A program made the position numbers and the translations under genes. Below, one piece after another: positions 5,133-18,087 of a DNA stretch of 23,630 nucleotides. Below the pieces are notes generated by a model. It had not been told where the DNA came from and made no database searches. It saw nothing but the letters and a program-made list of their open reading frames with translations. Every line of letters begins with the position of its first letter. Position 1 is the first letter of the stretch. Origin of the DNA: a virus; IMG/VR virus record IMGVR_UViG_3300045929_000084, positions 1 to 23,630 of that record; one strand, 5' to 3'.

Positions 5133-5334
5133 GAGCGACCACCAGGTTGATGGCGAGCAGGACGGCGCCGGTGGTGAGCGAGATGATCATGCCGATCATC
5201 GCCCACAACAGCTTGTCGAGCCGCTGGTTGATGCGCAGCAGGTCCAGCTCGAAGGCGTCGGCGTCGGACTCGAGCAGCCCGATACGGGTGTCGACGTCGT
5301 AGCGGCTGCGCGCTTCGCTGCGTGTCTGGCTCAT
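5122..5334 (-). CDS. Small coiled-coil plus C-terminal TM protein, holin- or XhlA-like
   Basis: This 70-aa protein starts at ATG 5334, overlapping the endolysin stop (ATGA). The first 40 residues are highly charged and helical (RIGLLESDADAFELDLLRIN), followed by one hydrophobic segment at about 43-66 and a short VARGG tail. This layout, an N-terminal amphipathic helix then one C-terminal membrane span, is that of XhlA/hemolysin-type holin accessories encoded next to endolysins in Gram-positive phages. It probably works with the downstream membrane proteins in the timing of lysis. The assignment is by topology and context only. Confidence 0.7.
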   Translation of the reverse strand: MSQTRSEARSRYDVDTRIGLLESDADAFELDLLRINQRLDKLLWAMIGMIISLTTGAVLLAINLVVARGG

Positions 5335-6077
5335 CCGGGGTACACCGCCGGATCCCAGAAGTGCGGGACTCCGCCGATGGTTTGGCCGACCGTCCAGGTC
5401 TTACCGCTGTCGCGTTCGACGACGTCGACGTGGAACCGGGGGCCCATGCCGTTGCCGGTGTCGAGCGTGTACACGACGGGGTCGACGAGCTCGGCCGAGC
5501 CGACCACAACCGGCCAGTTCCGCACCTTCTCACCGATGGCGACCCATTCGAGATTGCCGAGGGGGATACCGGGGCCGTCGTTGTACTTGATCGCCAGCCC
5601 CCACGGTCCGCCGGTGCGGGCTTTCAGCGTGATCCCGTCAGCTCGGGTGTGGGCGGCGTTCTTGGACACGTCGTCGTCCTCCACGGGGGCAGGGGGCGAG
5701 GGGGTTCCGACCGGTGGCGGCTGGTAGCCGGGTTGGCGGGCGCTGCGCGGTTCGACGTGCCACGGTTCGCCGATGTTGAGCAGCGGATACCACAGGCCGA
5801 ACTCGGCGGCGATGTTGCGCATCTGCGGGGTGGAGTTGGGGGCGTGGTCGATCGCGAGGCCACGTTCGTGGTAGCTCGACCCCGGTCGGGCGGCGGTGTT
5901 GCACGACGGGCACGGGCACCGGCCGGTCCGCAGGCGAGCCTGGTAGCAGTCCCACAGCCGCTTCTGCGCCAGTGGGTCGCGGTAGCCCGACACGACCCGA
6001 GGCCGCGGGTGGCCACGACGCGCACACTCGTCGGCGTACAGGTTGAACCGGTGCTCGAAGTCCTCGTCGAGAGCCAC
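5331..6077 (-). CDS. Endolysin: M15-family (VanY/L,D-type) zinc peptidase with unknown C-terminal domain
   Basis: I chose GTG 6077, which has AGGGGG about 8 bases upstream immediately after the Kelch stop; the longer open frame to 6263 reads arginine-rich shadow of the Kelch gene. The 248-aa product begins with an M15 peptidase domain: VVSGYRDPLAQKRLWDCY (28-45), SSYHERGLAIDH (68-78) and EPWHVE (104-109). These supply the expected zinc ligands H70, D77 and H107. The family cleaves peptide stems or cross-bridges of peptidoglycan. A proline-rich linker near 115-130 leads to a C-terminal domain of about 110 residues (TLKARTGGPWGLAIKYNDG onward) that I do not recognise and that probably binds cell wall. 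A CPCPSC cysteine cluster (54-59) sits inside the catalytic domain. The downstream membrane genes complete a lysis cassette. Confidence 0.9.
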   Translation of the reverse strand: MALDEDFEHRFNLYADECARRGHPRPRVVSGYRDPLAQKRLWDCYQARLRTGRCPCPSCNTAARPGSSYHERGLAIDHAPNSTPQMRNIAAEFGLWYPLLNIGEPWHVEPRSARQPGYQPPPVGTPSPPAPVEDDDVSKNAAHTRADGITLKARTGGPWGLAIKYNDGPGIPLGNLEWVAIGEKVRNWPVVVGSAELVDPVVYTLDTGNGMGPRFHVDVVERDSGKTWTVGQTIGGVPHFWDPAVYPG

Positions 6078-6088
6078 GATCAGTCCCC

Positions 6089-7000
6089 CTACAGGCCGAC
6101 GTAGATGCCGACGAACACGCCGCCGCCGAGCCGGTAGCGGGCGTGGTAGGTGTCCGGGGTCGGCGCGGTGCGACCCCCGAAGAACTGCGCCGACGATTCC
6201 CCCGCCGCGGCGGCCATGTAGACCACGCCGGCGCCGGTGGGCAGCACCCCGGCGTCCACCCACGTGTCAGCCGAGGACATCCACACGTAGGCGACGTCGG
6301 TCGGCGCGGGAGGGTTGCCGCCAGCGGCGACGATTCGAGGCGAGCCGGTGCGAGTCGGCGCCGCCGCGATGCCCTCGTAGGAGTGGGGGTAGTCGGCGAC
6401 GGTGTCCCAGCTGTCAGCGTCGAGGTCGTATCGGCGCACCGTGGGGACGAGCGTCCCGAACCCGGAGCCCTCGTAGCCAGAGATCAGCAGCGCGTGGTGA
6501 CCCGACTTGGCGTAGGCAAAACTGCTCTTCTGCGCTGGGATGGATGTCGCTGACGACCAGGAGTCCCCGGCGATGTCGTACACCTCGACGGAGTCAGTGT
6601 TGGCGCTGCCAGTGGTGGTGCCTCCGAACACGAACACCTGCCCGTCGTGGTACACGGCGCCGTGGTCGAACCGGGGCACCGACATCGACGCGAGGCCGGT
6701 GTCGTAGCTGTCACCCGACGTGGAGTACCCCCAGATCTGCGACTCGGGAGTGAGCGACGAGTCGGCGTTGCGCCCGCCGACGAGGTAGATGATGTCGGTC
6801 TCGTCGGATGCTGCAGCCCAGTCCCGTCGGATCGCGGGCAGGTTGCTGACTGCGGTCCAGCTGGACCCGTCCCACCAGTAGGCGGTCTGCCGGTTCGGCC
6901 CACCGCCGAAGACGTAGAAGTCCTCGCCCACCGCACCGGCGACGGCTTCCTGGCGGGACTCGGGTAGGACGGTGAGGCTGTCCCACTGTCCGACAGGCAC
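6089..7000 (-). CDS. Kelch-repeat beta-propeller protein, probable tail-tip/adsorption protein
   Basis: This 303-aa protein starts at GTG 7000 directly after the TAA of the DUF1508-like gene. It consists almost entirely of Kelch blades. The inner strands with their glycine ends are FYVFGG (28-33), IYLVGG (71-76), VFVFGG (122-127), LLISGY (171-176), IVAAGG (223-228) and AQFFGG (271-276). They are followed by the usual aromatic positions, for example YDIAGDSW (141-148) and YDLDADSW (191-198). That predicts a six-bladed propeller. Residues 288-303 (RYRLGGGVFVGIYVGL) lie outside the last blade. The gene sits between tail hub and endolysin, so it is probably a virion protein at the tail tip that binds protein or carbohydrate. 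No signal peptide is present. Confidence 0.85.
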   Translation of the reverse strand: MPVGQWDSLTVLPESRQEAVAGAVGEDFYVFGGGPNRQTAYWWDGSSWTAVSNLPAIRRDWAAASDETDIIYLVGGRNADSSLTPESQIWGYSTSGDSYDTGLASMSVPRFDHGAVYHDGQVFVFGGTTTGSANTDSVEVYDIAGDSWSSATSIPAQKSSFAYAKSGHHALLISGYEGSGFGTLVPTVRRYDLDADSWDTVADYPHSYEGIAAAPTRTGSPRIVAAGGNPPAPTDVAYVWMSSADTWVDAGVLPTGAGVVYMAAAAGESSAQFFGGRTAPTPDTYHARYRLGGGVFVGIYVGL

Positions 7001-11984: not shown

Positions 11985-12655
11985 TCAGAGCCTCCCTTCG
12001 GCGATCGCTTTGCGTCGCTCTCGGGCCCGCCGGCGGGCGTCGTCGAGCTTCGCCTTGCGCTGTTTGGTCATCCGTCGCGGCTTCCGTTTCGGCCGATCCG
12101 GGTGCGGCTTGGGGTTCTTCACGCCCGCGGAGCCGGCCACTTGGCGTCGGAGCTCGTCGAGAAGATGTTCGGACCGCGTCCACCCACCGCCGAGCGCGGA
12201 GTCGGCAGGGAGGTGCTTGACGCGGACCAGCACCATGCGCAACGTCAACCGTCGGACGCCGTCCGCGTCGAAGCGGTAGAGGTCGCGAAGGTCGCAGTGG
12301 TAGAAGCGAGCAAGGTCGGCCTCCAACGCGTCGCGCTGCTCTCGCAGGATGGCGAGGAGGCCGGCTATTCCCCCGCGTCACCGAAGCCGTAGAGCTTGGC
12401 GACCTGTTCGGTGAACACGGCGAAGTCGGAGACCTTCGGTTTGCGGCCGTGGTTGCGGATGAACGCCCGACACATCTCGTCGTACGTGCTGCGCCCGACG
12501 AGGTTGACGAGAAACGTTGCGCCTTTGGCGTTCTCGAACGCTTCGAGCGCGTCCATGTCCCACTCGTCGACCGAGGAGGGCACCACAACCTCGATGCCCT
12601 CCCAGATCGTCGACTGCGTGAGCCCGTCGGCCTCGACGCGTACCGGGTCGCTCAC
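11985..12655 (-). CDS. Tail assembly chaperone GT, made by -1 frameshift
   Basis: The second open frame (about 12377-11985) has no credible start of its own: its first possible codon is a TTG at 12326 with no ribosome site. It is in the -1 frame relative to the G protein, and reading from G through a GCGGGGGAA slip gives a 223-aa fusion whose junction reads FGDAG-GIAGLLAILREQRD, a sensible continuous helix. The T part begins with an amphipathic helix, has a DLRDLYRFD motif and ends in a strongly basic tail (KPRRMTKQRKAKLDDARRR). In lambda-like phages gpG/gpGT coat the tape measure and recruit tube subunits during tail assembly, and the frameshift sets their ratio. Position right before the tape measure is canonical. 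Confidence 0.85.
12365..12655 (-). CDS. Tail assembly chaperone G (unshifted product)
   Basis: This 96-aa acidic protein starts at GTG 12655, overlapping the major tail protein stop (GTGA), and terminates at TAG 12367-12365. Helical segments with DMDALEAFENAKGATFLVNL (33-52) and a basic FIRNHGRKPKVSDFAVF stretch (65-81) fit actinophage tail assembly chaperones. It is the abundant product of the G/GT pair, expected to wrap the tape measure and not to stay in the finished virion. A much longer in-frame extension to 12988 is a shadow of the tail tube gene and is rejected. Confidence 0.85.
   Translation of the reverse strand: MSDPVRVEADGLTQSTIWEGIEVVVPSSVDEWDMDALEAFENAKGATFLVNLVGRSTYDEMCRAFIRNHGRKPKVSDFAVFTEQVAKLYGFGDAGE
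12368..12374 (-). promoter_or_regulatory. Putative programmed -1 frameshift site (GGGGGAA)
   Basis: Minus-strand codons are GAC GCG GGG GAA TAG. The -1 frame has a TGA at 12380-12378 and the zero frame stops at 12367-12365, so any -1 shift must occur in the 11 bases between. Those bases contain a run of five G followed by AA. After a -1 slip the GGG codon re-pairs perfectly; GAA re-pairs to GGA with a mismatch at its middle base, so the site is close to, but not a perfect match of, the X XXY YYZ rule. Slippage may occur mainly in the P site. Confidence 0.75.
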
Positions 12656-13173
12656 GATGCCGGGTTCGGCTGTTCGTCGAACAGCACACCATCGGCGTCG
12701 GGGAAGATCGTGGCGATGAGCGGGTAGACCGTGACGTCGCTCTCGGTCTCGCTGTAGGAGCCGTTGACCGCGACCTCGGCCTGGTAGGACGAGATGAGGC
12801 GACGAACCGCGGTCCCCTCGCGCGTCTCGAACGCGATCTTGATGCGTGCCGGCCGCGGCACGATCAGCTCGCCCGGGCCGGACCCGGGCCACAGCAGCGA
12901 GCGTGTCGTCGCGTTGTACTCGAGCGGGGTGAAGGCGACGGTGTACTTGAAGTTGCGTCGCAGGGTGCGTACGAGGATGCCGCCCCACGCGAACCGGTCG
13001 GTCTGGTCTTCCTCGCGGGTGTGCTCGAAGCCGGCGTCGCCGTCGAGCAGGCCCACAAGATCCCAGTCCGCCGAGAACGGGGTGTCCTCGTCGGCAGGGG
13101 TTGCTGCGACCAGCGAGCCGACGTACACGTCAGCCTCGGTCCAATGATCTGCATTCGCCGGATCGCCGGCCAT
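12652..13173 (-). CDS. Major tail (tube) protein
   Basis: This 173-aa protein starts at ATG 13173 with an ideal AGGAGG 4 bases upstream; the longer open frame to 13485 is discarded as an arginine-rich shadow. The sequence begins MAGDPANADHWTEADVYVGS, is acidic and beta-rich (FAWGGILVRTLRRNFKYTVAFT; IKIAFETREGTAVRRLISSY), and ends in DADGVLFDEQPNPAS. Size, order (tail terminator before, G/GT chaperones after) and its own strong ribosome site all support the tail tube subunit, the most abundant tail protein. It lacks the C-terminal Ig-like decoration domain present in some actinophage tube proteins. Confidence 0.85.
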   Translation of the reverse strand: MAGDPANADHWTEADVYVGSLVAATPADEDTPFSADWDLVGLLDGDAGFEHTREEDQTDRFAWGGILVRTLRRNFKYTVAFTPLEYNATTRSLLWPGSGPGELIVPRPARIKIAFETREGTAVRRLISSYQAEVAVNGSYSETESDVTVYPLIATIFPDADGVLFDEQPNPAS

Positions 13174-13183: not shown

Positions 13184-13601
13184 AGCTTCCGCTGTTGGCG
13201 GGTTCGGATCGGACGGCTACCCGGAGGGTCACCGACGCGATTTCTGCGTTGGTCTGGTCGTCGCGTGCGGGGAGCACGCCGGTCAGGGGTCGGATGGTGG
13301 AGATCGTGTCGCCGCCGCCGTACGCGACGAGGAGCCCCTCGGCGAGCGCGGCGAGGCGCTTCGCTTCGGTTGTGGTGGACGCGCGAGCGACGATGCGGAT
13401 GGTCGGGTACGCGACGACGGGCCAGGTCTGGTCGGGGGTGCCGTCCGAGGCGACCTCGAGATGTGAGGTCGTGCCCGGCTTCCACCCGTTCGGCACGCCG
13501 ACCGCGACGGTGACGGTCTCGCCGGCGTCGTCGAGCAGTTCGGTGAGCAGATCGACGACGGCTCGTTGCGCGTCGGGGAATGTCACCTGTGGTCGCGTCA
13601 T
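13182..13601 (-). CDS. Tail terminator-like protein
   Basis: This 139-aa protein starts at ATG 13601, overlapping the previous stop (ATGA). An N-terminal helix FPDAQRAVVDLLTELLDDAG (8-27) is followed by the strands VTVAVGVPNGWKP, WPVVAYPTIRIVARAS and, after a helix EAKRLAALAEGLLVAYGG, ASVTLRVAVRSEP. That alpha/beta order, with the first helix using an FPD motif, is characteristic of actinophage tail terminators, which cap the tube at the head-proximal end. The location between gp10-like neck protein and tube gene agrees. Confidence 0.8.
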   Translation of the reverse strand: MTRPQVTFPDAQRAVVDLLTELLDDAGETVTVAVGVPNGWKPGTTSHLEVASDGTPDQTWPVVAYPTIRIVARASTTTEAKRLAALAEGLLVAYGGGDTISTIRPLTGVLPARDDQTNAEIASVTLRVAVRSEPANSGS

Positions 13602-13861
13602 TGCTTGCGCACCTCGAGTCCGGCGGCGGCGGCGGCGCGGGTGAGAGTCCCGTCGCGGGCCTGGAGGAGCAGCGCCTGGGGTTCGCGGATGGTGACGGAG
13701 GACGCGACGCGGTCGGTCGTGTAGTCGTCGACGACGATGTCGAGGTCGGGGTCGAGGTTGTCGGCGATCTTCTCGGCGTTGCGGTGGACGAGTTTCGCCA
13801 GCTCGGGGTCCTTGAGGAGTTGCGCGGTGCCGCGCCGGTCGGGCTTGTAGGTGGCTCTCAT
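13598..13861 (-). CDS. HK97 gp10-like neck/tail-completion protein
   Basis: This short 87-aa protein starts at ATG 13861, overlapping the glycosyltransferase stop (ATGA). A longer frame to 14221 runs through the glycosyltransferase in another phase and is rejected. The sequence begins MRATYKPDRRGTAQLLKDPE with a helix ELAKLVHRNAEKIADNLD, then a VVDDYTTDRVASSVTIREPQ strand region and a final basic LTRAAAAAGLEVRKQ. This is the compact arrangement of actinophage gp10-like proteins located just before the tail terminator. It likely completes the neck. Confidence 0.7.
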   Translation of the reverse strand: MRATYKPDRRGTAQLLKDPELAKLVHRNAEKIADNLDPDLDIVVDDYTTDRVASSVTIREPQALLLQARDGTLTRAAAAAGLEVRKQ

Positions 13862-14556
13862 CGGGCGACCCTCCCGGCTTGCTGGGCGAGGCGTTGGCGT
13901 GACCGGTCGAGGCGGGCGGTGTCGCCGATAGGCACTACCTCTCCTGACCAGTCGACCGACAAGGCGGAGACGTCGGTGCCGGCGAAGCGGTGGGCAGTGC
14001 GCCGCTGGTTGTGGCCGGTGACGAGCGAGTCGTCGCCGCGGTGATCGACGAGGGAGGGCCACGAGTACCAGCAGGCGGTCCCGTGCTTCTCGAACCACCG
14101 CGACACGCGACGGTCGTAGTTCTGGATGGTGGAGTGCCGATACCAGGCGGCAAGGTCGTCGATTGTGGCTGTGGGAACGACGATGGCGGGTCCCCAGTAG
14201 ACGCCCTCCATCGTGAGCCACGACACCCCGTCACCAGCGGCTTCGACGGCTCGCTCGACGCTGCGTCGGAACGGGCGAACCCGTCCGACGTACAAGCTGA
14301 CGGGCGCGTCGGCGGGGACGTGCTCGAGCGCTTGTTCGGTGCCGGCGAGGAGGTCTCTGCAGGCGACGGCGTCGTCTTGGATGACGAGGTGATGAGTTGC
14401 GGCCGGGTCGTAGGCGCACATGGCGCGGATCCCGGTGTCGTGGCGGTCGTTGTGTTCGTCCCACACCACCTGCGCCGGACGGTCGAGGGACTCGACGAGC
14501 TCGGTGACCATCGCCTCGCGGCGTGGGTGGGCCATCACCACGACCGACAGGGTCAC
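13858..14556 (-). CDS. Glycosyltransferase-like protein (GT-A-type), second of the cassette
   Basis: This 232-aa protein starts at GTG 14556, overlapping the preceding stop (GTGA). An N-terminal strand LSVVVMAHPRREAMV (3-17) and a VVWDEHNDRHDTGIRAM segment (30-46) precede LVIQDDAVAC (57-66), where the QDD pair has the position of a nucleotide-sugar/metal-binding DXD motif. WYSWPSLVDHRGDDSLV (163-179) resembles the acceptor-side PSLVxHxG element of GT25-like enzymes. It probably transfers an activated sugar to an acceptor in the host cytoplasm. Given its place between head-closure and neck genes, a virion protein is a plausible acceptor, but host glycan or teichoic-type polymers are possible. 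Confidence 0.75.
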   Translation of the reverse strand: MTLSVVVMAHPRREAMVTELVESLDRPAQVVWDEHNDRHDTGIRAMCAYDPAATHHLVIQDDAVACRDLLAGTEQALEHVPADAPVSLYVGRVRPFRRSVERAVEAAGDGVSWLTMEGVYWGPAIVVPTATIDDLAAWYRHSTIQNYDRRVSRWFEKHGTACWYSWPSLVDHRGDDSLVTGHNQRRTAHRFAGTDVSALSVDWSGEVVPIGDTARLDRSRQRLAQQAGRVAR

Positions 14557-15107
14557 AGTCGACAGACCGCGAGGTGCTCGGCGACGATCTTGACGCGGTA
14601 GCCGACGAGCGTGTCGACCACGGCGCGCACGCCAGGGTTCCGTCGGGTCGCGTAGTCGTCGAAGGCGACGACATGGGAGGGCGCGAGATGCGGGACCCAT
14701 GCCTCGAGGTCGGCGCGGACTGATTCCTCGTCGTGGTCGCCGTCGATGAACAGCAGCCCCACGAGCGGCCCGTCCCATGCGTGTGCGGCGTCGGTGCTGA
14801 ACGCCCGGATCGGGGTGACCCGCGACCAGAGACGAAGAGCGCGGAGCTGCTTCTCGAACGCTTCGCGCACCTCGGGGTCGGTGAATCCGTGTTTGCCGGC
14901 GATGTTGCCGGGGAGGTCCCAGGGGTCGACGGCGTACACGGGGACGCCTTGCCCGGCCTTCGAGCCGGCGGCAAGGTAGGCGGTGCTCTTGCCTTTGTAG
15001 GAGCCGATTTCGACGATCGCCTGGTTGGCGGGGACCTCGGTGGCGAGGTCGTGGAGGGCGTCGCCGATGCCGGGGTTGAGGAGGCCGACGGCGTCTTCGA
15101 GGATCAT
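14553..15107 (-). CDS. Class I SAM-dependent methyltransferase, Methyltransf_24 type
   Basis: This 184-aa protein starts at ATG 15107, overlapping the FkbM stop (ATGA). The SAM-binding motif is VEIGSYKGKSTAYLA (32-46), followed by YAVDPWDLPG (58-67), an FIDGDHDEESVRADLEAW acidic motif (120-137), which resembles a metal-binding GDH site, and VVAFDDYA (146-153). These are hallmarks of the CmcI/cephalosporin-hydroxylase and sugar O-methyltransferase-like Methyltransf_24 group. Proteins of this group often methylate sugar hydroxyls. Encoded between FkbM and a glycosyltransferase, it likely acts on the same glycan. Confidence 0.85.
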   Translation of the reverse strand: MILEDAVGLLNPGIGDALHDLATEVPANQAIVEIGSYKGKSTAYLAAGSKAGQGVPVYAVDPWDLPGNIAGKHGFTDPEVREAFEKQLRALRLWSRVTPIRAFSTDAAHAWDGPLVGLLFIDGDHDEESVRADLEAWVPHLAPSHVVAFDDYATRRNPGVRAVVDTLVGYRVKIVAEHLAVCRL

Positions 15108-15757
15108 GGGCTCCAGCGCTCCATCGTCGAGCCCATGTGGATCGCCCGGGTCATCTCGTAGCCGAGCGGCTCGAGGAGCTGGGCGACGCTGTCGTGGGAC
15201 TGGTCGGTGTGGGTCTCGGTGTAGATCAGCGGTCGGCATCGTTCGATGTGGTCGAGTGCGCCTTCGAGGACGGCCGCTTCCATCCCTTCGACGTCGACCT
15301 TGAGAACGGCGAGGTCGGAGACGTCGAGGTAGCTGTCGATCGGTCGGACGCGGACGTGGCCGCGATCGAGCTTGAGGTTGGCGCCGTCGCGGGCGGGGTC
15401 GAACTCGACCCAGCGGCCGGGGGTGAGTCGGCCGCGTGCGACGCGGGCGCCTGCGGCCCAGGCGTGGACGGTGATGTCGAGGCCGGGGTTGAGGGCGAGG
15501 TTTGCTTCGAGCTGGTGGCGGGACTGGTCGTGTGGTTCCCAGGCGTGGACGCGAAGCCCGCAGATGGCGGCGAGGTAGAGGGAGTGGTTCCCGACGTGCG
15601 CCCCGACGTCGAACGCGGTCCCGGCGAGGTTGTGCTGGTGGATGTCGACGAGGAGGCGTCGCTCGTAGGGTTCGCCGTTGGTGACCTTCGAGCCGACCCG
15701 GCCGCCGGGGTCGTTGATGCGGTAGCGCAGGCCGAAGGCGGCGATGTCGCAGATCAT
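15104..15757 (-). CDS. FkbM-family methyltransferase
   Basis: This 217-aa protein starts at ATG 15757, overlapping the GT32 stop (ATGA). Motifs are FDVGAHVGNHSLYLA (49-63, SAM loop), AWEPHDQSRHQLEANLALN (72-90, acidic end of strand 2), RVRPIDSYL (136-144) and LAVLKVDVEGMEAAVLEGA (149-167). The last is the FkbM signature KxDVEGxE. Known family members O-methylate sugars or polyketides. The full length matches the family. Tight coupling to two glycosyltransferases and another methyltransferase indicates modification of a sugar chain in which one or more hydroxyls are capped by methyl groups. Confidence 0.9.
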   Translation of the reverse strand: MICDIAAFGLRYRINDPGGRVGSKVTNGEPYERRLLVDIHQHNLAGTAFDVGAHVGNHSLYLAAICGLRVHAWEPHDQSRHQLEANLALNPGLDITVHAWAAGARVARGRLTPGRWVEFDPARDGANLKLDRGHVRVRPIDSYLDVSDLAVLKVDVEGMEAAVLEGALDHIERCRPLIYTETHTDQSHDSVAQLLEPLGYEMTRAIHMGSTMERWSP

Positions 15758-16362
15758 GCGGCTCGCTTACGGGCGTTCTCCCAGTGGTGCACGGCGTAGG
15801 CGTCGGGGAAGTCCTCGTCGCGCCGGTCGAGCTCGTCCCACCGGTACGGGTAGAACAGCGCCGACGGGAACGTCGTCGCCGTCGAGCGGCGCCAGATCGG
15901 TGTTAGCAACTGGGGGCCGGTCATCACGTTCGGCCGCTTGCCGCGGTTGAGCGCGACGTTCATAGGGATGGAGAGGATGACCCGAGCGAGTGCCCCGTGG
16001 CCGGCGCGTGCTCCGATGATGGCGTTGTTGACCCACACGTCGTCGGTTTCCCATGCCGCGAACGCGTCGAGCCGATCGATGAGCTCGTCGAGGGGTCGGC
16101 GGCACTCGAAGTCGCAGTCGACGTAGACGCCGCCGTGACGGTGGAGGATCTCGTAGCGGGCGAGGTCGGCGCGGAACTGGCCGACGTGCGGGGTGATCTC
16201 GTCGGCGTGGTCGTAGAAGTACTGGTTCTGCAACCAGTCGAAGTTGGACCACATGATGTGGTCCCATCCTGGGTGGTGGTCGCGCCAGGTGTCGACGTAG
16301 CCGTCGAGATGCTCGGGGAGCGGCCCACCGATCCAGATGTGGTGGAGGACTTTGGGGATCAT
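15754..16362 (-). CDS. GT32-type glycosyltransferase (Gly_transf_sug, DXD)
   Basis: This 202-aa protein starts at ATG 16362, overlapping the head-closure stop (ATGA); the long extension to 16941 is a shadow of head genes. MIPKVLHHIWIGGPLPEH (1-18) is the typical opening of the capsular polysaccharide/OCH1-like GT32 family. QFRADLARYEILHRHGGVYVD leads to D82-C83-D84, the DXD motif that binds Mn2+ and the nucleotide-sugar. NNAIIGARAGHG (112-123) and the final VHHWENAR (191-198) are the acceptor-side motif and the HHW element. All key positions are intact. It probably starts or extends a glycan that the adjacent methyltransferases modify. Confidence 0.9.
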   Translation of the reverse strand: MIPKVLHHIWIGGPLPEHLDGYVDTWRDHHPGWDHIMWSNFDWLQNQYFYDHADEITPHVGQFRADLARYEILHRHGGVYVDCDFECRRPLDELIDRLDAFAAWETDDVWVNNAIIGARAGHGALARVILSIPMNVALNRGKRPNVMTGPQLLTPIWRRSTATTFPSALFYPYRWDELDRRDEDFPDAYAVHHWENARKRAA

Positions 16363-16670
16363 CCGGTCGCCTGGGTGAGTTCGGCGGTCATCCCTGCCGC
16401 CCAGCTGGTCCAGGGGTGTTCCCAGGTGCCGGGGTCGCCGTCGATGTCGTAGAGCACGCCGTCGACTTCGACCTGGTCGGTGTGGACGATGTCCGAACCG
16501 ACGGGAGCGAACAGTGTGAGCCCGGTCACGACAGCCTCGCGGCCGGGGTCGTGGACTTCGTTCGAGTGGCGTGGCGCGACGAACGCGCTGTCGATGGTGA
16601 GCCGGTCGGGGTCGCCGGCTTCGCGGTCGCCGTAGACGTCGGTGCCGGTTGGGCGGACCCGGACGATCAT
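16359..16670 (-). CDS. Head closure (stopper)-like protein
   Basis: This 103-aa protein starts at ATG 16670, overlapping the adaptor stop (ATGA). It is beta-rich: MIVRVRPTGTDVYGDREAGD, a short DRLTIDSAFVAPR, then GLTLFAPVGSDIVHTDQVEVDG and VLYDIDGDPGTWEHPWTSW near the end. The stretch with a TDQVEVDG turn followed by a DGDPGTW strand resembles the SPP1 gp16/HK97 head-tail stopper family in actinophages. It should plug the connector after packaging. The following gene, unusually, is a glycosyltransferase, not the neck protein. Confidence 0.75.
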   Translation of the reverse strand: MIVRVRPTGTDVYGDREAGDPDRLTIDSAFVAPRHSNEVHDPGREAVVTGLTLFAPVGSDIVHTDQVEVDGVLYDIDGDPGTWEHPWTSWAAGMTAELTQATG

Positions 16671-17169: not shown

Positions 17170-18087
17170 TCAGGAGCCCTGGGCGGCCAGGACGACGAGA
17201 CGGTTGTTGTTCCCGTCTTCCTCCACTGAGGAGGCGCCGACGAACGCGTCCACGAGGGAGCGGTCGACGGGGCCGGTGGAGTTGGTCGGGTTGTAGTCCC
17301 GCAGGTAGCGCAGGGCGAGGGTCTCGGTCGCGACGCGGGATTTCATCGCGGCGCCGTCCGGCAGGGCGGGGGCGACGTTCGCGAAGCCGATCGCGGTGCG
17401 GTGGTACGCGTAGCCCTCGTCCGATCCGACGGCGTTGGAGCCGAGGATCGTGAAGCCAGCGATCCGGTTGATCGTCGCCTCCTCGAGCGCGTCGCGGTTG
17501 CCCGAGTTGTGGTTGTTGACGACCGGGTCGTTGAGGAACCACGCCTCGAGCTCGGATCCGAGCACGAGCACCCGCTCGGAGCGGGGCACGTTGAGGTCGT
17601 TGAGGACCTTCCGTGCTGCGACGGCGACGGCGAACGCCTCGCCCGAGGAGGGCGCGGTGCTCGTGTCGATCGGGTCGAGCTCCTGGCCTGCGGCCACGTT
17701 CGCGCCGGCGAGCGCCGCCGCGATCACGTCCTCCATGCCTTCGGCTACCGCGCGGAGCTGAGGATTCAGCACCTGGCGGGCGAAGTCGATGATGTCGAGC
17801 GTGAGTTGCTCGTCGGTGATGTTGAGCAGGTCGTAGACGTGGGTGTCGAGGACCACCGGGACCGAGGTCTCGGTCAGGTCGGTCGGGCTGAGCGCCGTGT
17901 TGGACCGCATCGTGCGCGTTCCGGCGGTGCGGACCGCGGGGATGCGGAGGGTGACGGTGTCGTTGAGCGCACCGACGAACGCTGCGTCGGGCTGCGCCCA
18001 GACGGTGCGGGGAAGCACGATCTCGCGCTGGAGCAGTAGCGCTGCAGCGTCGACGATCTGACTTTCCTTGATGAAGGTGTTCGCCAC
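17170..18087 (-). CDS. Major capsid protein, P22 coat/HK97-fold type
   Basis: This 305-aa protein starts at GTG 18087 with AGGAGG 5 bases upstream. MANTFIKESQIVDAAALLLQ and the following REIVLPRTVWAQPDAAFVGA with NDTVTLRIPAVRTAG are strongly reminiscent of the P22 coat protein-like major capsid family of actinophages. Further on, FARQVLNPQLRAVAEGMEDVIAAALAGA is the spine helix and RYLRDYNPTNSTGPVDRSLVDAF lies near the C-terminus. The scaffold gene directly precedes it. It assembles the icosahedral shell around scaffold and portal. The product appears full-length with no delta-domain-like N-terminal propeptide, so it may not require proteolytic maturation. Confidence 0.9.
   Translation of the reverse strand: MANTFIKESQIVDAAALLLQREIVLPRTVWAQPDAAFVGALNDTVTLRIPAVRTAGTRTMRSNTALSPTDLTETSVPVVLDTHVYDLLNITDEQLTLDIIDFARQVLNPQLRAVAEGMEDVIAAALAGANVAAGQELDPIDTSTAPSSGEAFAVAVAARKVLNDLNVPRSERVLVLGSELEAWFLNDPVVNNHNSGNRDALEEATINRIAGFTILGSNAVGSDEGYAYHRTAIGFANVAPALPDGAAMKSRVATETLALRYLRDYNPTNSTGPVDRSLVDAFVGASSVEEDGNNNRLVVLAAQGS

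Follow-up and report, generated by a model that had tools for sequence, protein, structure and literature searches.

A predicted virion glycosylation and methylation cassette in the head-tail operon of a virus related to actinobacteriophages, and its association with C-terminal serine on capsid and tail tube proteins

Enzymes encoded by viruses and linked to glycosylation of their own particles have been described in mycobacteriophages and in a chlorella virus. Che8 gp110 and Corndog gp38 are named as the two essential glycosyltransferases (GTs) for viral capsid glycosylation in PMC12363180, and the capsid and tail tube proteins of mycobacteriophages are reported to bear glycans at their C-termini (Freeman 2023 as cited in PMC12619734). 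In the head operon of cluster O phages, GTs are accompanied by an O-methyltransferase (PMC11600133), and the terminal rhamnose on the capsid glycan of chlorella virus PBCV-1 receives its cap from two methyltransferase activities that work in sequence (PMC9614988). The window analyzed in this work is a whole IMG/VR virus record of 23,630 bases (IMGVR_UViG_3300045929_000084), for which there is no host assembly and in which the large genes lie on the minus strand. It contains a cassette of four intact minus-strand genes for a GT32-type GT, an FkbM-family methyltransferase, a Methyltransf_24 (MT24) methyltransferase and a second GT, here called GTc, located between the genes for the head closure protein Hc1 and the neck protein.

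We consider it likely, with a probability of about 0.7, that these genes form a cassette for O-glycosylation of the virion and methyl capping of its glycan, which is expressed with the head-tail operon and would place the first sugar on the C-terminal Ser of the major capsid protein (MCP) and of the tail tube protein. Direct observations behind this reading are the intact enzymes, the conserved gene order, the homology between GTc and GTs reported for capsids, its GT-A fold and an association between nearby GTs and C-terminal Ser on these two proteins. The role of Ser as acceptor, the sequence in which the enzymes act, the kinds of sugar and the methylation of this glycan are inferred: at the exposed C-terminal Ser of both proteins, GTc would most likely attach the first sugar, GT32 would lengthen the glycan, and FkbM and MT24 would O-methylate its sugars to give a methylated cap. 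The original prediction for this DNA, made from its letters, had placed the glycan on the virion or on the host envelope; the virion is the likely target, and the glycan itself is a prediction from genes. The features concerned are the following.

15754..16362, minus strand: GT32-type glycosyltransferase, 202 aa, first cassette gene (PF04488, DxD motif)
15104..15757, minus strand: FkbM-family O-methyltransferase, 217 aa (PF05050)
14553..15107, minus strand: Methyltransf_24 (MT24) O-methyltransferase, 184 aa (PF13578)
13858..14556, minus strand: GTc glycosyltransferase of the Che8 gp110/cluster O family, 232 aa, GTG start (phrog_854)
17170..18087, minus strand: MCP, predicted glycan acceptor, end ...LAAQGS (phrog_283, E 9e-50)
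17173..17175, minus strand: predicted acceptor codon, C-terminal Ser of the MCP (from the Ser/Thr association of GT-bearing MCPs)
12652..13173, minus strand: major tail (tail tube) protein, predicted second acceptor, end ...QPNPAS (PF25681, weak, E 0.0047)
12655..12657, minus strand: predicted acceptor codon, C-terminal Ser of the tail tube protein (from the tail tube Ser association)
16359..16670, minus strand: head closure Hc1, upstream neighbour of the cassette (phrog_501, E 9.5e-21)
13598..13861, minus strand: neck protein, downstream neighbour of the cassette (phrog_8079, E 6e-18)

GTc had no Pfam match and belongs to phrog_854 (glucosyltransferase; E 1.3e-36). It was 33% identical to Che8 gp110 over 141 aa in a pairwise comparison (E 8e-14), and its family profile matched gp35 of the cluster O phage Dylan, through which the Corndog-type enzymes were compared, at 1.2e-41. 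Sequence comparison of GTc with solved structures gave no relative (best E 0.39), and its class was settled by a fold search with an AlphaFold2 model (predicted local distance difference test score of 93.4), which has a GT-A fold, with GnT-I and POMGnT1 as its closest matches. The DD pair D61 D62, D148, P167 and H172 are invariant. The likeness of GTc to domain 1 of PBCV-1 A064R is at the fold level only (E about 8e-4), and many other GT-A folds rank higher. GT32 matched PF04488 (E 1.4e-13; 51.8 bits against a cut-off of 23), keeps its DxD motif in 'YVDCDFE', and has among the solved relatives of its profile the yeast-type (Och1-type) initiation-specific alpha-1,6-mannosyltransferase. FkbM matched PF05050 (E 2e-15; 57.8 bits against a cut-off of 22.7), its S-adenosylmethionine motif FDVGAHVGN and its KVDVEGME motif are intact, and it is 67-70% identical to the copies in the diverged contigs L006 and L012.

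PF13578 was the sole Pfam match of MT24 (E 6e-23), and there was no match to the DNA methyltransferase models in Pfam. Its only solved relative is the protein in 6g7d, 6g80 and 6h40 (8.3e-7 to 6g7d), which is probably the mycobacterial sugar 1-O-methyltransferase MeT1. The label 'DNA methyltransferase' that this family bears in phrog_2675 and in RefSeq relatives (phiAsp2 pas34, Cheetobro gp93) is probably wrong, as both its Pfam family and its solved relative suggest O-methylation of a sugar. The four enzyme assignments made in the original prediction are borne out by the matches to PF04488, PF05050, PF13578 and phrog_854.

Of the described systems, that of Che8 (gp108-110) and Corndog (gp38) shares with the window a GT of the gp110 family, GTc being homologous to both Che8 gp110 and the cluster O enzyme. 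The predicted targets, the capsid and tail tube C-termini, are the same, as is the C-terminal Ser, and the window has acceptor-like Ser ends on both proteins (AAQGS and NPAS). Che8 differs in that two GT2 enzymes stand beside gp110, without a methyltransferase, at the right end of the genome, whereas the window has GT32 and two methyltransferases inside the head-tail operon. Cluster O phages (Dylan, Corndog-like) also have a methyltransferase beside GTs in the head operon, and their last GT is of the GTc family, but their cassette lies between portal and protease, lacks GT32 and includes an O-methyltransferase that falls outside the FkbM and MT24 profiles. In Actinoplanes phage phiAsp2 (pas33-pas35), GTc comes immediately after an MT24-bearing protein, and the two genes overlap by 4 bp; however, pas33 is a GT2, MT24 lies within a protein of 596 aa whose N-terminus is GT-like, GT32 and FkbM are absent, and the genes come after the tail genes. 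PBCV-1 (A064R/A061L) resembles the window in encoding GTs and two methyltransferases, which there cap the terminal sugar on a capsid glycan, but this is an N-glycan made in a eukaryotic host, and the likeness of the enzymes seen here is at the level of the general GT-A fold; PBCV-1 is an analogy and not a fellow member. The earlier statement that a methyl-capped phage glycan is little described is therefore only partly true, given the cluster O O-methyltransferase (PMC11600133), the phiAsp2 set of GT2, MT24-bearing protein and GTc, and PBCV-1 (PMC9614988).

The presence of a nearby GT is associated with the last residue of the MCP. The idea arose from Ser-ending MCPs beside the cassette, and the GT families were fixed before two further MCP families were scanned. 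Loci were classed as GT-bearing when a GT lay within 9 kb downstream of the MCP gene, the GT-absent class was defined by our own profiles on the same 9 kb, and the gene caller and family clusters were our own scripts. The window MCP family was deduplicated at 90% identity, and p-values treat deduplicated loci as independent. Within it, a Ser/Thr end was present in 26/26 GT-bearing loci and 7/21 loci without GT (p 3.4e-7); the corresponding figures for the two further families were 13/13 versus 10/34 and 2/2 versus 0/13. Among loci outside the discovery set, 10/10 with GT and 10/47 without ended in this way (p 4e-6). In phages with such genes next to the capsid gene, the last residue of the MCP is almost always Ser, and once Thr. 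A close contrast is provided by L143, with GT, which ends ...VRAVKLTLGS, and L137, without GT, which ends ...VRAVKLTLGA. The Ser end is shared by the MCPs of L133, L220 and L276, loci that have only GT2 enzymes, which shows that an enzyme other than GTc can come first in some cassettes.

Tail tube proteins, whose family was built from the tail tube protein of the window, behaved similarly. A Ser end was found in 10/13 loci with GT and 3/17 without in the window scan (p 0.002), and in 5/5 and 5/41, respectively, in the replication scan (p 2e-4), where two of the five (L015, L049) were already known. Control proteins showed no difference in Ser/Thr ends with and without GT (TerL 0/18 versus 0/15, portal 1/22 versus 2/18, Hc1 0/11 versus 1/9), and Ad1 leaned in the same direction as the MCP (4/22 versus 0/21, p 0.11). 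The tail terminator was considered as a third acceptor and rejected (7/13 versus 4/11, not significant). Among isolates, the MCP and tail tube proteins end in NKTGS and SDGS in Che8, in YAGS and EPAS in Ronaldo, which has GTc and a GT2, and in LVGS and KGDS in Dylan, where GTs are present. These ends are GSGS and VGSV in Cheetobro, which has MT24 and in which no GT was found, and APAA and VISV in TM4, in which none of these enzymes was found. A genome scan with GTc returned one prophage, L170 of Puerhibacterium puerhi, other matches that looked like chromosomal GTs, and a contig of a metagenome-assembled genome (L171) that was not placeable. In L170, GTc lies upstream of the terminase and the two proteins end in LAGS and VTGS; this prophage offers a cultured host. 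Loci L187 and L259 have poly-Ser (SSSS) on both the MCP and the tail tube protein, and no GT was found in the fetched stretch.

Several points weigh against Ser as the acceptor. The capsids are related: independent tree pairs were 6:0 (2 ties) and 6:0 (4 ties) in two families, and on strongly supported branches approximately 4:0 and 2:0, which is consistent and too few for significance per family. With the three families pooled, a Ser/Thr end occurs in 41/41 MCPs with a GT nearby and also in 17/68 for which none was found; the latter class is defined on 9 kb, the whole-record searches covering 21 contigs of one family and four isolates. A GT distant from the MCP escapes the 9-kb test, as in Che8, where the GTs lie at the other genome end; the whole-record search of the 21 no-GT contigs gave one GT2-like match, in L141, whose MCP ends in Ser. 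The tail tube protein ends in SSL in three GT-bearing loci that are related to one another, and the GT-bearing phage L021 ends in ESP. Myrna, reported to be glycosylated via an unrelated GT, ends in RKA and TTTV, so the Ser signal is not universal.

It could be argued that the C-terminal Ser marks capsid ancestry or flexible tails and that the glycans are located elsewhere on the particle. The Ser-ending MCPs without a detected GT, including the poly-Ser tails of L187 and L259, speak for this explanation, which we nevertheless regard as unlikely, since the pattern recurs in three MCP families and several tail tube families, all informative pairs change in one direction, and mycobacteriophage glycans are reported at C-termini in the source cited above. 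It is improbable, in turn, that the target is a glycan or glycolipid of the host envelope, modified for superinfection exclusion or receptor masking, and that the cassette is found in the late operon by chance. Bacterial surface glycans are also substrates of FkbM, GT32 and Methyltransf_24 enzymes, and the nearest solved relative of MT24, probably MeT1, modifies a host polysaccharide (PMC9883506). The Ser association, however, is specific to the MCP and the tail tube protein, cassettes are repeatedly placed between MCP and neck, no predicted membrane anchor or polyprenol-linked enzyme was noticed, and GTc is homologous to capsid GTs.

A further possibility, to which we assign a similarly low likelihood, is that the GTs glycosylate the virion while the methyltransferases act elsewhere, on a host sugar, a small molecule or a protein. 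Some cassettes have GTs without a methyltransferase (e.g., L133), and both methyltransferases are without an assigned substrate. Yet FkbM in 22/27 and another methyltransferase in 16/27 of the loci that have both GTs lie between GT32 and GTc, MT24 in phiAsp2 and relatives lies within a long protein whose N-terminus is GT-like, and the solved relative of MT24 is probably a sugar methyltransferase. Modification of phage DNA, with a hypermodified base and its glucosylation, is very improbable and was rejected on enzyme family grounds. Some phage GTs do act on DNA, and phrog_2675 and RefSeq label the MT24 family accordingly; but MT24 belongs to PF13578 and its solved relative is probably a sugar methyltransferase, no DNA-binding domain was noticed, no genes for modified-base synthesis were seen in the window, and the association is with capsid tails.

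Relatives of the cassette were retrieved by an alignment scan, which returned 74 loci with GTc, single-protein scans having returned few. GT32 is located 5' of GTc in all 27 loci with both, several of which are copies of one phage. The cassette is found between MCP and Ad1 in L013 and L143, between Ad1 and Hc1 in L012, likewise upstream of Hc1 in L006, and between Hc1 and neck in the window and L049. At the exact site of the window, L133 has an unrelated cassette of five GT2 enzymes in a backbone 43-67% identical to that of the window (terminase 40%). Other cassettes contain GT2, Stealth-like, LicD-like, cytidylyltransferase-like and sulfotransferase-like genes, some with matches below the Pfam cut-offs. 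Judged from these sequences, the relatives form a mobile, mosaic and putatively virion-glycan cassette. In a comparison of the window with L012, identity is 55-70% for the cassette proteins, 63% for portal, 42% for MCP, 34% for Ad1 and 28% for Hc1; the cassette may have a history of its own, or its enzymes may simply evolve more slowly.

MCPs of at least 370 aa in the window family occur in 14/21 no-GT loci versus 0/26 GT loci. They have some 90 extra aa near the C-terminus, with an Ig-like Big_2 domain in L129 and, weakly, in L154; this stretch was seen in L129, L154, L121, L125 and L105. This suggests an anticorrelation between long MCPs and GTs, which by eye involves few clades on the tree. 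There is about an even chance that actinophages share a general C-terminal Ser signal on unrelated capsid and tail tube proteins, on which swappable cassettes would write differing, including methylated, glycans, and that in the window family the glycan replaces the Ig-like extension.

As far as can be checked, the four-enzyme arrangement in the connector genes and the swapping of unrelated cassettes at a single position are new, as is the terminal-Ser association across capsid families, of which Freeman 2023 may already report the Ser site. If the reading of the cassette is correct, the last capsid residue would predict from sequence which phages are glycosylated and where, and a phenomenon of few mycobacteriophages would become mappable across phage genomes. 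Capsid glycans would then be an exchangeable module, and the two methyltransferases would imply methyl-capped glycans on bacterial viruses. Virion glycosylation of mycobacteriophages is reported to lower antibody recognition, which bears on the interpretation of phage therapy data.

Terminase and capsid relatives of the window are nearly all from actinobacteriophages, and its MCP has an HK97 fold, with Douge gp8 and Che8 gp6 as the nearest solved structures. Further neighbours of the cassette are Ad1 (phrog_137) upstream and the tail terminator TrmT (phrog_6485) downstream. Gene calls confirmed the predicted position between head closure and neck, with 4-bp overlaps at 5/5 junctions. The same overlap occurs at Portal/MuF, Ad1/Hc1 and Neck/TrmT, and because it is ordinary throughout the operon it is uninformative on the age of the cassette. 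The earlier claim that translational coupling speaks against a recent insertion is not supported, as the overlaps are the operon norm and the cassette shifts junction or is replaced in relatives. The cassette is also present at 99.99% identity in two other contigs and at 46-70% protein identity in L006 and L012, and is therefore no assembly artefact.

TnpB-like and Dam-like genes were seen by eye inside glycan cassettes (L016:6785-7915, L019:5870-6841). A 690-aa protein of the GT2a cluster is encoded between Ad1 and the downstream genes in L087:2903-4975 and L088:2020-4095, phages whose MCPs are close to that of the window (65% identity for L088). Among the tail-end genes of the window, a Kelch-repeat protein (PF01344, 1e-14) is encoded at 6089-7000 on the minus strand and adjoins a gene for a VanY-like D-Ala-D-Ala carboxypeptidase (5331-6104).

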